Source: Phlyctochytrium arcticum (lineage: Eukaryota > Chytridiomycota > Chytridiomycetes > Chytridiales > Chytridiaceae). Taken from it: a stretch of 64,000 bases of DNA. Positions within the stretch are counted from its first letter, which is position 1, and every line of letters begins with the position of its first letter. Both the position numbers and the translations under genes were made by a program. The notes below the pieces were generated by a model. That model made no database searches and was not told the DNA's origin. It saw only the letters and a list, made by a program, of their open reading frames with translations. This document shows, piece after piece, positions 1,134-23,093 of this stretch. The stretch spans positions 186,001 through 250,000 of the forward strand of contig JAHLKI010000002.1 in the NCBI GenBank assembly GCA_025602905.1, read 5' to 3'.

Positions 1134-3791
<2,658 letters not shown>

Positions 3792-4019: not shown

Positions 4020-6625
4020 ATGGCACGGGCGAGGAGAGCAGCGGTCGTTGCGGGTGCGGTGATGTTTGGGATATTGTGCTTCATGTTCCTGGGGTCGTCC
4101 AATCGGAATTTCAGGTTTGAATATCTCACTTTCCCCATCCCTGGATCAGTCTCTGATCCTTTCAATTACACACAGTCATCGCCTACCGGAACCGAGTGCA
4201 AGAAAGCCAAATTCGAGGATAATAGCCGAGGAGCAGCAACTCTTCACATCGACAATACCACGGCCTACCCAGCTGCAGGATAAACAGACGCTGACCACGA
4301 TAGTCGAGGATGCCAGTGAGCAAACAACCAAACCATTGAAACCCACACCAACCTCTGGGGCGGGGAGCAGGGAGTCGAATCCGACAGAGCAGCCAAGTCC
4401 CAGCCGCAAGTTAACGTCCCCCCTCCCAGGCGAAACATCCACCATCGATCGCTTGACTCTCCGGCGTGTTTCTCATGAAGAGTTTGGCGAGTGCCTGTAC
4501 ATCAACAACGCCACTGTCCCATTCACATGTACAAATGATGAAGCCATGCATCATGAATCTCTTGTGCACCCAGCTTTGCTTATGCACCCATTTCCGCGGC
4601 GCGTCTTGGTTGTCGGAGGACTTGTCGGCTCCGCCGTGAGGGAAGTACTGAAACATCCATTGGTGATGTATGTGTCCTGGGTAGAGAAAGACACAGTTTT
4701 TCACTTTGGCAGAGAGCAGTTGAATAGTACCTTCTGGTACGACGATTTGCTGAACCGGACACATGTTCAAGACATGACTCCTGGAGCCTTTTTGCAATTT
4801 ACGGCCAGAATGAAACTCAATTATGATGTTATCATTATGGCAGATGGAATGGCACGTGGTGAGCAGGAAAGCTATTGGAAAGGAGCAGCATCATCGGAGA
4901 CGCGTGAAAAGTTGGTGGAAGGCGCGCGCGGCGCGCTGCAACCTGGCGGAATCTTGAGTTGGTTTAGCGGGCAGCTTGACGATGACGCTTGGCAAGATCG
5001 GGTGCTTCTTCGACGATTCTTCCCACGTGTGTTTGCCGGCACACGATTCTCGCCCTCCGTTGGGGCTATCCGAATGTACTATTTCGCCACAAAATCAGAA
5101 GCGCCTCCGGTACCTGCATCGCTTACGGCGCAATATGTCGACGACCGACTCAAGGTTATTTTGGGCGGCGGCAACACAACTCTTTTGGAGTACGATGGTG
5201 AAAGTCATCTTCATATGTTTGCCCTTCCCAAGTACATCCGTACCCAGGCAGAGGCGCGCGATGAAGTGGCCCGCCATACCAAATCGCGAGTGATTGTTGC
5301 TGGTGCAACGGCACAAGAGTTGTTACATGCCCCCTTTGACGTGTTGGACTTTACTGAGAATGTTGCGTTGGGGGTCACCCAGGTTCAGGACATGTATGGA
5401 TGCGATGCCAAATTGTTCGAGTCAACTACAATAGAAGCAATCCTACAAAGTGCGACAGAGATAATGGGGGGCAGTGACATCACCATTAGCTCAACCAAGA
5501 CGGACACTTTTCACGTAAGGGGGCGCACGGATGTGACTTCTCTTATTTCAGCGCAAGCGGTATACAACGGAGGCAGCGTCCACTTGCTTGTGTGGCCGGC
5601 ATACGGCTCTGTGTCAGTAGACTTAACAGATTTTAACGGTGATACCTCGCAAGGCTCGCTCTTTCAGCACATATTCAAAACTCTCGGTATGTACTTGCAG
5701 TTGCATACCTGATGTTAGATTTGTTTGACCATTGGGCTGCAGGATGTGCCAAGGGTTTAGGAGGGACATTATCACGTGGTGGACCAAGCGTGTGGCTCTC
5801 AAAAGTTTCAATTGACCACTTGTCATACCCGCCTGTGCGCCAAAACCACCCAAGTGTTCGCCTGGATTATCGCGAAAATGACATTTTGACGTTTGTTGCC
5901 CATGCCCCCATACCGGCCAACACGGAACTCTTGAAAAGCATGCCGGACCTTTTTCTCCGCACAAGAGACAGTATTAATTCCGATCCAATCGCCCTTGAGA
6001 AACTCAAGCGTTTGAAAGTACAGCAAGTCGGGTCGGATCTTTTTGCACTTGCTGGAGTTGATGGGGTCTATCTCCCCACCCATAGTTGCGATCCAAACAC
6101 TTGGTAATGACCTAGGGCAAATGGATATTAACATCACTCACATACTGAACTTGGGACTTGTATAGGTATTTGGATGCAGATACTATCTCGGCAAGACGCA
6201 ACGTCTTATCAGGGGAAGAGCTCACTCTGGATTGTAAGTTCATTGCTCAAATACATGTAATGCCCAATCCCTCTGATGCGTTTTTGACAGATGCAACGGT
6301 TTTCAGTAATCCGAACGATTTGGATATCCACAATTGTACTTGCGGCACAAAGATTTGCCGCAACCATATCACGGGAAACGACTGGAAGCTCAAGACTCTA
6401 CAGGAGCGTTACACCATCAATCGCTTCCTTCCCCATATCCAGCTTCTGATGCAGAAAAATGGAATATCCCTTTTAGAAGACGAGACGAGTGCGACTCGTC
6501 ATACAGTGGAGAGTCTTGATGCGGACGGGAAAATGCCAGCAGAACTGGATTTTGTTCATCCACAGAGTACTGGTACGCAAGAACTGGATTCTCTTCATCC
6601 ACAGAGTAATGGTACGCAAACATAG
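4020..6625 (+). CDS. Membrane-anchored spermidine synthase-like / AdoMetDC-like / SET domain fusion
   Basis: Exons 4020-4114, 4176-5686, 5743-6103, 6166-6233 and 6291-6625 join in frame to about 789 aa. Residues 8-25 form one hydrophobic segment after a basic start (signal anchor). A Ser/Thr/Pro-rich linker follows. Residues about 130-370 look like an aminopropyltransferase (PABS) Rossmann domain: VLVVGG, REVLKHP, VEKD, YDVIIMADG. Residues about 400-535 resemble bacterial-type AdoMet decarboxylase around VWPAYGSVSVDL. Residues about 540-740 resemble a SET domain with HSCDPN, GEELTLDY and a Cys-rich post-SET CTCGTKICR. In the first domain the GGGDGG aspartate is Val182. In the second, the Glu-Ser cleavage pair is Gly497-Gly498 and the catalytic His is Leu503. 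Both are therefore probably catalytically dead or altered, while the SET motifs look intact. Function is unknown; protein or polyamine methylation are possibilities. Confidence 0.85.
6542..6619 (+). repeat. 39-bp tandem repeat in the C-terminus of the SET fusion gene
   Basis: There are two adjacent 39-bp copies, 6542-6580 and 6581-6619. They encode two near-identical 13-residue units (ELDFVHPQSTGTQ and ELDSLHPQSNGTQ) just before the stop codon. The copies differ at only a few bases, so this is a recent in-frame duplication. Confidence 0.9.
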
Positions 6626-16412: not shown

Positions 16413-18727
16413 TCACGCACGCGTAGAACCACCATCGCGACCTCGTCCTCTGCGTCCTCCTCGACCTCGTCCAGTAGTCTTGGGCTTGGGAGCTGCCTTC
16501 CGAACCTTCCCACACTGCTTCAGAACATGGTCGTACTGGTGCTCGGTCGATCCGCACCCTGTGCACCGACGCTTCGTGGGAGGCTTTGTCAAGTCCAAAC
16601 CAAGACTAGACGCGTCCTCACCCGCCCCCATCTCCATATTCTCAACACTGGCGCACAGTGCACGCAAATCAGCCATAAGATCGTCCTCCCCACTCAAGTC
16701 AATCATCTCGTCCTCGTCTTCCGGGTCGGACTCCGGAATTGGCTGGTCTCCTGGCGCGCTCAGGTCGTCTTCGCCATCTTCAGCATCTCCAGCAAGACCA
16801 AGATCCTCGCCACTACTGTGAATGCGGGGTTCTTGCCACTGGTTTCGTGGTCTTCCATAATGCCTTGCTTTTGCTGCGGTTCTCTAGCGCCGGCAATGTC
16901 TGGAGCAATTGTGTTGTCTTGGGGTTCATCGACTAAGTACCATCGCGCGTCAAACTGCCGGTAGCTGAGCTGCTCCTTCTTCTCGAGGATACTCATGACT
17001 TCATGGCCGCACGGCACACCATAAACTTTGCGAATTGTGCACCGGCACTCCACATCACCATCGTCGATTGCTGCCGTCACGCTCTTCCAAGATTTCGATG
17101 TCAGGTTGATCGCAAATCTGGAAACAATTTGCTGAAGCGGCAAGAACATGACGTTGAAGGTGGTGACAATGCCGTTGATCTCGTTATTGTACCGAATCTC
17201 GGATTTCTTCTGCATGCTTGCTACCGTCAAGGATATCTTCTTGTACGTGTGGGCAAGAGTTCCGACGGAAGACTTCAGGTTTTGTTTGATCCGCCGATGT
17301 TGGCTCTCGACAATGGATGTCTCCGTATGTCTGCAGTGTTTGAGTTGGTTGGTAGAGAAGCCGGCGAAATGTTCCTTGAAAGGTAACTTGTTGGATGTGA
17401 TGTAGTTAATTGTTTCTGGGCTAACAAGTTTCGCAATCTCGCTCCAGGCTTGTTTGAAGAGGGCTTCTGTCGGCTGCTCCAACATATACTTCCAGTCCTT
17501 TTCGAATTTGGCCCATGTATATGCTTCCAAGTTATCATCAGACGCTGTCACAAAGTATTTGTGGCAGTTGGATTTGATGTTGAGAAGGATATGCCACCGG
17601 CAAAGGAGTCTCTTCGTCTGGGGCCAAACTCCTTTCAAGGCTCCTATCAACGCTTTTTCGTGGTCGGTTACTACAATGTCAGGTGCCCTGCCCAAAACTT
17701 GCGTCAACAACTGTAGGAACCAAACATAGTCGCCGCATTCTTCCTGCTCAACAATTCCAAATGCAATGGAGAATGTGTTGTTGGTAGCCGTGAATCCAAC
17801 AGCATGCATCATTGGCATCTTGTACTTGTTGGTTTGGTAAGTGGCATCAATAATTACCACATCCGCGTACTTCCTAACGTTTGGATTACCATCGGCTGAC
17901 CAAAACAAACGACGTACGGTACGGTCGGCGTTCAGTGTGAAGTCCGCCACCAAATGATTTTGTTTCATTCTCGTCAACAGCGCCTCCATCATCGTCATAG
18001 TTCCAAGCTCTTTTCTCTGCATTCGGGCGACAATGTTGGAGACATCCCGAGCAACGATCAGGATCGGTCTGTCCGGATTGTCATCAGCAAGCGACTGAAC
18101 TATTTCACCGGGACTACGGGCATCAGCGTACATATCAATAATCTTGGCGAGAATGACACCATCTGCAAGTTTTTGGGTGGCCCTTCTTGCTGCAGGCAGA
18201 CTGGCAAGCTCTGCGGTGTTCCTCTTTGGATGGTTGATGTGCTGGTCGTGCCCGTCGCCAAATTTCACAATCCTCCAAACTTCTCCAAGCAAGCTTAAAC
18301 GGACTCTGTAGGTGCAACCGACCTTCTTACTCTCCCGCTTTCTCTTCGAGTTTGGAATGTTTGCTGGAGGCGACCCACCCTGACAACAATGAAAGATCAC
18401 CATACGAACAATTTTCGGATTGCCCCAGTGTTCCTTTTTCTTCTCAGAAACAGCAAATCCCTCGGAAAGCGCGTACTGATGAACACCGTCAATCCCCTTT
18501 TCCATCGTGGCAAATTCAACATCCGGCGCAGCTTGAGGAAACCATGGAGCGTGGCGGGATGCGGCTTGCGCGATGATAGCATTTGCCAAAGCAGCTTGAG
18601 GGGCGGCCAGGCTACTGGGAAGAACGATTGCCTGTTCGGGGGTCAACCCGACCACAGTGGCAACCTCTGTTGGCGGTCTTGCGCTGGGGCGTGCGATAGC
18701 TGTGTCTGCAGAATTGGCGGCTTCCAT
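16413..18727 (-). CDS. MULE transposase with SWIM zinc finger, frameshifted near the C-terminus
   Basis: The main frame 18727-16760 encodes 655 aa. It has an N-terminal FAR1-like zinc-binding region (IFHCCQGG ... GCTYRVRLSL ... HINHPK), then a Mutator DDE domain with IIDATYQTNKYKMP, VVTDHEKALIGAL, CRWHILLNI and ESQHRRIKQNL, then a SWIM finger ECRCTIRKVYGVPCGHEV. The natural C-terminus lies in another frame at 16413-16800 and holds an acidic stretch and a zinc knuckle (CTGCGSTEHQ ... QCGK) with a Gly/Arg-rich tail. The two frames become continuous if a 26-bp insertion at 16815-16840 is left out. The catalytic core is intact, so activity without the tail cannot be excluded. Confidence 0.93.
16815..16840 (-). 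repeat. 26-bp TIR-like insertion breaking the transposase frame
   Basis: A 6-bp direct repeat (gccact) at 16809-16814 and 16835-16840 brackets the insertion, whose core aatgcggggttct matches 13 consecutive bases of the element's own TIR and is followed by a further ccactgg match. Leaving it out restores the frame HETSGEDLGLAGD. A 26-bp intron is not plausible. Confidence 0.75.
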
Positions 18728-21710: not shown

Positions 21711-23093
21711 ATGTCTGTTTCAGGGAATTCTAACGTCTGGCGATCTCTGACCCCTGAAGAGATTATACAGGCTAACGACGTGTATAAGACCTTCAAAACT
21801 GGACGAGATGCTTTGTGGGCTAAAATTCGTAGGGTCTATCCAGGCTTCAAGGGCTCGCAACGAGCCGTTCTTGCGGGGCTGAAGGAACAACCCGAATGGC
21901 AAGACCACGTCAAACCCCCGAAAAGACAGGAAACAGCACCTATTCAAGTGACGAAACCCGGACTAGCACAATGCGATCTGTTGTCGATGGATCAAGACGG
22001 GCCCTATGTAGCAATTCTCAGCGTCGTAGATGCGTTCACTAAAAAAGGTTGGACACGACCCCTTAAAGGAAAATCGGAGGTAATCGTTACTGCTGCAGCC
22101 CGTGAGATTCTAACCCAGTGCCGACGAGAAGGCAAGAAATGGACCGTCTGGACCTCAGACAATGGTGGAGAATTTCAGAGTCTCTTTAGAGGAATGCTGG
22201 CCGATTATGTTATCAAACTGTTCCATTCACCTCCTCATCAACCGACGGCCAATGCAATTGTCGAAAGACGGAACGGAACTATCCGTCGTCAATTATATGC
22301 CCTTATGCGCGCAGCAGGAAATAGTCGGTGGGTCGGAAATCTACCGACCGTTACTGACAATATAAACGAAACTCGGTCGTTCGCCACTGGTTTCAGTCCC
22401 AACACCTTGGAAGGTCGTTCGGCGACCCATCCTGATCAAGTCGCTGCAGCAGCTAAGATTAGAGACACTATCGCTCGACGATACAAGGTCAAGCAAGTTA
22501 CATCAGTTTTGCACATCGGCCAGAAGGTCCGGAAAAGGCGTGTCCGTGGTCGCCTCGATAAGCCCGGTCAACTAGGTTACTGGGACAAGGGTAGTCTTAG
22601 GGTTGTGCAGCGAATCAACTCGACATATAGCAATTTTCTCCCGACATATCGCCTCATCACCAGCAACGGACAGGCGGTACCTGGACGAGTGGCCAAGACT
22701 GAGCTTTTAGCAATCCCTCCTGTATTGACACGTGACCAGGTTAGGATTCAAAGATATCGTCGCAGTGCCCCCGTGCAAGATGTCGATGAAACAAACCCAG
22801 ATGTACCACCGGAAGTTCAACCAAATGAGCTGCTACAGCCTCATTTAGACTCCTCAGGAGAGGAGCCTACGATTCAAAGACGATCAATGCGGTTGCACAA
22901 CCAACAAAACGAACCTGAGGATCGATACTACGAGATCGATTTTTTAGTGGACAAACGGAAGCGGGGACGAACTGTTGAATACTTGGTTAGATATACTGGA
23001 TACGGACCTGAGTACGACCAGTGGCGACCTGCTAAAGAGCTAATTGGAGCTCCAGAATTGATAGCTAGCTATGATGAACAGCACAGGACGTGA
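21711..23093 (+). CDS. Retrovirus-type (rve) integrase with C-terminal chromodomain
   Basis: This 460-aa protein carries an rve core with D at LLSMDQDGPY, D at WTSDNGGEF and E at ANAIVERRNGT, a D-D-E triad with about 34 residues between the last two. An SH3-like region with basic residues (GQKVRKRRVRGR) follows. The C-terminus is a chromodomain (YYEIDFLVDKR ... YLVRYTGYGPEYDQWRPAKEL). Polinton integrases have the same order. The chromodomain may direct insertion to chromatin marks. No reverse transcriptase or LTR is present, which argues against a Ty3/gypsy origin of this locus. It overlaps no neighbour and faces the recombinase gene. Confidence 0.92.
   Translation: MSVSGNSNVWRSLTPEEIIQANDVYKTFKTGRDALWAKIRRVYPGFKGSQRAVLAGLKEQPEWQDHVKPPKRQETAPIQVTKPGLAQCDLLSMDQDGPYVAILSVVDAFTKKGWTRPLKGKSEVIVTAAAREILTQCRREGKKWTVWTSDNGGEFQSLFRGMLADYVIKLFHSPPHQPTANAIVERRNGTIRRQLYALMRAAGNSRWVGNLPTVTDNINETRSFATGFSPNTLEGRSATHPDQVAAAAKIRDTIARRYKVKQVTSVLHIGQKVRKRRVRGRLDKPGQLGYWDKGSLRVVQRINSTYSNFLPTYRLITSNGQAVPGRVAKTELLAIPPVLTRDQVRIQRYRRSAPVQDVDETNPDVPPEVQPNELLQPHLDSSGEEPTIQRRSMRLHNQQNEPEDRYYEIDFLVDKRKRGRTVEYLVRYTGYGPEYDQWRPAKELIGAPELIASYDEQHRT

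Follow-up and report, generated by a model that had tools for sequence, protein, structure and literature searches.

SET domains are known as protein-lysine methyltransferases. A recent small-molecule exception is BurB, a SET enzyme reported to convert methionine to S-methylmethionine, which shows that free metabolites can be substrates of SET domains (PMC12542666). In diatoms, AdoMet decarboxylase (AdoMetDC) is fused to aminopropyltransferase (APT), and some of these fusions are also joined to a histone N-methyltransferase domain; a three-step route of decarboxylation, aminopropyl addition and N-methylation has been proposed for diatom long-chain polyamines, as summarised in PMC3820600 and PMC12029483, both citing Michael 2011. 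Human spermine synthase is described as carrying an AdoMetDC-derived domain that has lost its activity and is needed for dimer formation, and fungi, chytrids included, have two-part proteins (oryzae type) composed of a membrane part and a domain like PABS, the spermidine synthase fold (PMC12803844).

Here we describe a protein of the chytrid Phlyctochytrium arcticum that joins a signal anchor, a PABS domain, a class I AdoMetDC-like domain and a SET/post-SET domain in this order. Like the diatom fusions it combines these three domain types in a single chain but, compared by description only, differs from them in the order PABS, AdoMetDC-like, SET and in polyamine domains without key residues; its SET domain resembles a prokaryotic family, whereas the diatom domain, as described, is called eukaryotic (PMC3820600). 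Human spermine synthase likewise joins an inactive AdoMetDC-derived domain to the PABS fold, and the fungal two-part proteins share the membrane part and the PABS-like domain with the chytrid fusion; that type, as described, has neither AdoMetDC nor SET and is set apart by this description (PMC12803844). The sequence-only reading was aware of no published fungal protein with this order. None turned up in the open-licence literature, but triple fusions of diatoms are reviewed (PMC3820600, PMC12029483), so the kind is known and the novelty is smaller than that reading supposed. The chytrid family with its apparently dead AdoMetDC and the bacterial SET-polyamine clusters and fusions presented below were likewise absent from that literature, where none of the papers listed is, by its title, about a SET polyamine enzyme and none connects methylated polyamines with a SET domain. 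An algal-looking metagenome protein (P0015, its origin guessed) combines PABS and AdoMet_dc. A SET domain seen in it by eye was unsupported (no SET Pfam match at E 1, hhalign probability 4.6), and a search with it gave five proteins including itself, with SET absent among the listed Pfam domains.

The window, which is the whole stretch of 64,000 nucleotides that was analysed, is part of a contig of 1.76 Mb; the genome measures 31.5 Mb. The species, now named Triparticalcar arcticum, is placed in Spizellomycetales by the phylogeny given in PMC11762872, and NCBI taxonomy still keeps it under Chytridiales. The gene at 4020-6625 is real: five exons on the forward strand encode 789 aa (Table 1), the coordinates and length that the sequence-only reading had given, and both in-frame splicing and ortholog matches bear them out.

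Table 1. Features of the P. arcticum fusion gene (positions in the window)
Feature	Position	Strand	Remarks
exon 1	4020..4114	+	start codon and signal anchor; spliced in frame to exon 2
signal anchor	about 4038-4094	+	Arg-rich N-terminus; hydropathy; similar N-terminal element in P0002 and P0026
exon 2	4176..5686	+	Pro/Ser/Thr-rich stem, PABS-like domain, most of AdoMetDC-like domain
PABS (spermidine-synthase-like) domain	4435..5250	+	aa about 119-390
Cys138	4492..4494	+	invariant in 5/5 family members; possible disulfide with Cys150
Cys150	4528..4530	+	invariant in 5/5 family members
class I AdoMetDC-like domain	5353..5753	+	aa about 425-539; spans intron 2
Gly498	5572..5574	+	in the place of the AdoMetDC pyruvoyl-forming Ser (alignment)
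exon 3	5743..6103	+	end of AdoMetDC-like domain and first half of SET
SET/post-SET domain	5832..6460	+	aa about 566-735; exons 3-5
ILTFV	5883..5897	+	replaces GxGxF of P0002, P0026 and most prokaryotic SET rows
exon 4	6166..6233	+	SET ARR-GEELTLDY segment
exon 5	6291..6625	+	post-SET CxCGxxxCRxxITGNDW, C-terminal tail, stop

The annotated protein P0001 (DFS34DRAFT_196814, Phlyctochytrium arcticum) matches the gene product at 97%; this public model begins only within exon 2 and leaves intron 4 unspliced, and PABS alone is listed among its precomputed Pfam domains. Splicing out intron 4 gives LDYATVFSNP, with which FDYGTIYSDP and IDYATTSTDS of the orthologs agree; the homology support for intron 1 comes from the anchors of two orthologs only. 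Two other genera show the same order and exons 2-5 align with orthologs across introns 2-4, which rules out a gene-model artefact; contamination was rejected in view of the four spliceosome-type introns and the length of the contig. Viral origin was also ruled out, as 53 pattern matches in viral contigs included none that encodes a relative. Profile searches found PABS and the AdoMetDC-like domain; for SET, Pfam PF00856 gave 22.0 bits against a cut-off of 22.4, and our profile of prokaryotic SET domains (A6) scored 100.5 bits in P. arcticum, 147.1 in Spizellomyces and 128.3 in Gaertneriomyces. The domain order and N-terminal anchor seen from the letters alone are supported by profile matches, hydropathy and orthologs. 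Elsewhere in the window, a coiled-coil stretch at 2374-2709 (-) matches DUF4200 (50.9 bits) in an apparent multi-exon gene; proteins of this type are often flagellar. Two mobile elements are present, a MULE-type transposase ORF at 16763-18727 (-) with a FAR1 domain just under the cut-off and an ORF at 21711-23090 (+) with a chromodomain and a sub-cut-off integrase match.

The same three-domain order was found in Spizellomyces (P0002) and Gaertneriomyces (P0026). Two further members, P0003 and P0027 (Geranomyces and a metagenome contig), have the first two domains and, as predicted, are without SET; their gene models may be cut short. We read these proteins as a family of Spizellomycetales chytrids. 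Searching the P. arcticum genome exon by exon with P0002 returned this single locus, which covers the query, and one weak match at the spermidine synthase, so that no paralogue expansion was seen. A canonical spermidine synthase (contig C31, E 1.2e-46) and a eukaryotic AdoMetDC (C16, E 5.4e-104) are encoded elsewhere, which makes the fusion an unlikely housekeeping route to spermidine. A further PABS gene (G000:C8:97232-97648, E 2.7e-7) may be one of the fungal membrane-(APT-like) proteins. At E 1 the genome yielded no class I AdoMetDC, in a search that also missed the weak domain of the fusion. There are 17 SET matches in the genome, and in the eight that were fetched no ORF reached E 1e-8 with A6 over at least 110 positions; introns cut several of them.

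The AdoMetDC-like domain has the class I proenzyme fold. In the alignment of the five family members the pyruvoyl-forming Ser is replaced by Gly in four and by Asp in one; phmmer sets the Gly of P0002 opposite the Ser of 1tlu, and the title of another AdoMetDC structure, 1tmi, is that of the S63A non-processing mutant. The Cys of the DxFTC motif, which we take to be the catalytic Cys of AdoMetDC, is Phe in three members and Tyr in two, while the His after the pyruvoyl Ser position, presumably His68 of the T. maritima enzyme, is kept in three of five. With both Ser and Cys lost in all five, the domain should be unable to form the pyruvoyl cofactor, and the decarboxylase segment of the sequence-only reading is not supported as an enzyme. 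The PABS fold is also present. Roles of its residues, including the acid that binds the aminopropyl amine of decarboxylated AdoMet, were taken from the description in PMC6514230, the mapping of its residue numbers onto motifs being made in this analysis. The acid of GGG[D/E] is Val in all five chytrid members, against Asp or Glu in P0028-P0036 and both proteins of the Omnitrophota locus L032; the second Asp of DxxDP and the adenine-binding Asp, kept in these same proteins, are absent from the aligned place in all five, and the Tyr of YHE is His in four and shifted in one. Other parts persist: the ribose-contacting acid in four of five, PGG and YDGxxHxxMFA in every member. Asp255, invariant in the family, lies one residue out of register with the catalytic Asp and could be that Asp after a one-residue shift. 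Active-site acids of thermospermine and spermidine synthases (MtTSPS, T. thermophilus SpeE) are missing from the family. The data do not support the usual aminopropyltransferase site that the sequence-only reading implied.

The P. arcticum protein begins with an Arg-rich start, one hydrophobic segment and a Pro/Ser/Thr-rich stem. This N-terminal segment is the most hydrophobic 19-mer in P. arcticum, P0002 and P0026 (three of five); P0003 and P0027, as predicted, have no N-terminal anchor. Cys138 and Cys150, at the start of the PABS domain, are invariant in the family and occur together in none of 13 other PABS rows, two of which (P0035 and the first PABS of L032) have a single one of them. Sequons lie between the two Cys residues in P. 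arcticum, P0003 and P0026, and the sequon NRT occupies one common column in P. arcticum and P0026. The arrangement suggests a type II membrane anchor, and anchor, stem, Cys pair and sequons together favour lumenal exposure, in support of the earlier proposal.

The SET domain was judged against 25 positions identical in at least 12 of 13 prokaryotic rows, of which P. arcticum keeps 19, Spizellomyces 21 and Gaertneriomyces 22. P. arcticum alone of the three lacks the two Gly and the Phe of GxGxF and the Asn of NHS; it keeps HS, DY and the post-SET Cys. P0002 and P0026 keep GxG, NH (NHH for NHS), DY and the post-SET Cys. With its site eroded in this way, the P. arcticum copy may be weak or dead; in the family, of the three domains, only SET looks usable. 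Among solved structures the best matches to the SET domain of P0002 are MLL-type histone methyltransferases (E 6.8e-8); BurB is also matched (E 5e-4 with the P0002 SET, 2e-7 with the family profile), within the C-terminal half of the domain only. A fold search did not return the SET part among the 50 matches listed, and the assignment therefore rests on sequence; in an initial structure model built on few SET rows, confidence over this part was low.

The SET alignment was scanned against one genome per species for 84,980 prokaryotic species, and on the similarities obtained the chytrid SET is a member of a prokaryotic family: 458 of the 591 matched stretches listed encode relatives, at least 458 in all. 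The best 80 of these show 29-44% identity over the best segment, and the ten best loci 35-38% to the P0002 SET. Prokaryotic standalone SET proteins share the post-SET consensus CxCGxxxCRxxxTGxDW with the chytrid domain. A PABS fusion was not seen in the prokaryotic loci examined; in Spirochaetota the SET is instead often fused to an AdoMetDC-family domain. In one 498-aa protein (P0017) a D-Ala-D-Ala-ligase-like ATP-grasp domain is joined to a SET that belongs to this family and looks prokaryotic. Polyamine genes were found by phmmer near SET in two of the best 80 loci (flanks up to 5 kb, shorter at contig ends). L032, from Omnitrophota, encodes on one strand and mostly with overlaps an AdoMetDC, two aminopropyltransferases, a saccharopine-dehydrogenase-like protein and SET (L032:1774-5498). 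L088, from Spirochaetaceae, has an AdoMetDC followed by a 300-aa fusion of SET and a second AdoMet_dc (L088:4959-5861), both domains above Pfam cut-offs.

The phyla of these two loci were searched and the flanks compared by phmmer with the L032 and L088 genes; unlinked SET loci serve as an internal control. In Omnitrophota a SET at E 1e-15 or better occurs in 32 of 285 genomes. Aminopropyltransferase, dehydrogenase-like gene and SET stand in a row in 10 of the 30 fetched loci, the best-scoring ones (L032 and L164-L172); in the remaining 20 no such partner lies within the 1.5 kb flanks. AdoMetDC lies upstream in L032 and in seven of the nine other extended loci (the exceptions are L170 and L172). 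The dehydrogenase-like gene of L032 matches no NCBIfam model and the Pfam saccharopine dehydrogenase C-terminal domain only below cut-off, and that of L164 no Pfam family at E 1e-5. In Spirochaetota SET occurs in 74 of 392 genomes, and 15 of 30 fetched loci, L088 among them, adjoin AdoMetDC, 14 as SET-AdoMetDC fusions by phmmer; the other 15 show no AdoMetDC within their flanks. Four Omnitrophota matches and many Spirochaetota ones lie outside the fetched loci. In L088, L173, L176 and other Spirochaetota the fusion, of about 300 aa, is encoded directly 3' of a canonical AdoMetDC gene. Pfam agrees in the loci checked: L164 has AdoMet_dc, PABS and SET, L173 and L176 encode the fusion, and L179 has AdoMet_dc next to SET. 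A Ser, His, Cys pattern (IETSLVSGHF...DxFSC) is kept in nine of ten extended fusions, and for this reason the fused Spirochaetota domain, unlike the chytrid one, may be active. Tandem pairs of two different SET genes were found in all five extended Spirochaetota loci L184-L188, with no AdoMetDC in their fetched flanks; L185 has a PABS ORF about 1.2 kb from the pair. These data support a SET type linked to polyamine enzymes, found independently in two bacterial groups.

The descent of the domains was studied in a tree of 144 of 154 SET hits, from which identical rows and rows below 55 bits (chytrids kept) and, earlier, hits below 110 profile positions were dropped; it was a quick search with SH-aLRT support and no bootstrap. 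All three chytrid SETs fall together (SH-aLRT 94), with P. arcticum on a long branch, and the Omnitrophota cluster SETs another (95), while the polyamine-linked SETs of Spirochaetota need two changes on the tree. The chytrid sequences join neither polyamine-linked set; they belong to a 17-row set with the Spirochaetota tandem SETs (83), and the idea that the chytrid SET came from a bacterial one linked to polyamine genes is unsupported. The association of SET with polyamine enzymes seems to have arisen more than once, a pattern that supports shared chemistry and not shared inheritance. As the chytrid SETs stand outside both linked sets and only two of the 80 best loci are linked, the argument for a shared substrate is one of analogy, not of descent.

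The reading that we tentatively prefer, at somewhat below an even balance, is that of an amine methyltransferase of the SET type that faces the lumen, its AdoMetDC-like domain being a scaffold and its PABS pocket altered. The proteins would be anchored in type II orientation, and the bulk of their catalytic part would most likely lie inside the secretory lumen. The AdoMetDC-like domain, devoid of the pyruvoyl cofactor, would have a structural or dimerising role, for which human spermine synthase offers a precedent; the PABS-like domain, with its aminopropyltransferase fold and part of its site, probably binds a polyamine-like or AdoMet-like ligand; and the C-terminal SET would transfer methyl groups to amines of polyamines or of lysine-rich chains. 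The sequence-only reading had likewise supposed a lumenal or surface methylator of such substrates, an idea that now stands for its SET part alone. The bacterial polyamine linkage speaks for the preferred reading; against it stand the missing GxGxF and Asn of NHS in P. arcticum, the place of the chytrid SETs outside both linked sets, the lack of anchor and SET in P0003 and P0027 as predicted, the possibility that Asp255 is still the catalytic Asp, and the need for AdoMet in the lumen, where its supply can only be presumed. The main rival, which we regard as unlikely for the family, is a pseudoenzyme, secreted or at the surface, in which no domain is catalytic and which is retained for binding or structure. 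All three sites are damaged in P. arcticum, yet the whole protein is conserved, and it has the anchor and the two invariant Cys; for this species a fully non-catalytic protein may well be the truth; the largely intact SET residues of P0002 and P0026 argue the other way.

A protein-lysine methyltransferase of the secretory pathway, whose targets could be wall or coat proteins and whose other two domains would be adaptors, would fit the MLL-type structure matches of the P0002 SET, but in the conserved clusters found the neighbours of the prokaryotic SETs are polyamine enzymes and no protein substrate is evident, which makes it rather improbable. The working three-step enzyme of the sequence-only reading (AdoMet decarboxylation, aminopropyl addition, N-methylation of the product) has a parallel in the same three domain types of diatoms, as reviewed in PMC3820600 and PMC12029483, and in the three gene types side by side in bacterial clusters; with the pyruvoyl Ser, the catalytic Cys and the decarboxylated-AdoMet acid lost in every member, and separate canonical enzymes in the genome, it is very improbable. 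We give least credence to a BurB-like small-molecule S-methyltransferase, even though BurB is among the structure matches and is described as acting on a free metabolite (PMC12542666), given how little of the domain that match covers and that none of 18 proteins scanned around linked bacterial SETs belongs to a methionine S-methylation pathway.

Beyond the chytrid protein, we put forward with more reserve than the preferred lumenal amine methyltransferase the possibility that one SET branch consists of polyamine N-methyltransferases, recruited independently in the Omnitrophota clusters, the Spirochaetota SET-AdoMetDC fusions and the membrane-anchored lumenal fusion of chytrids. The links between SET and polyamine enzymes hint at an unrecognised route of polyamine methylation; a repeated tie of this kind would point to candidate enzymes for N-methylated polyamines, and the diatom proposal could then be tested in simple bacteria. 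As for the chytrid family, it suggests that polyamine enzymes were turned into scaffolds in the fungal secretory pathway. If the proposal is true, SET domains, beyond the recent exception of BurB, would gain a role on metabolite amines, and chytrids would gain methylated polyamines at their surface.
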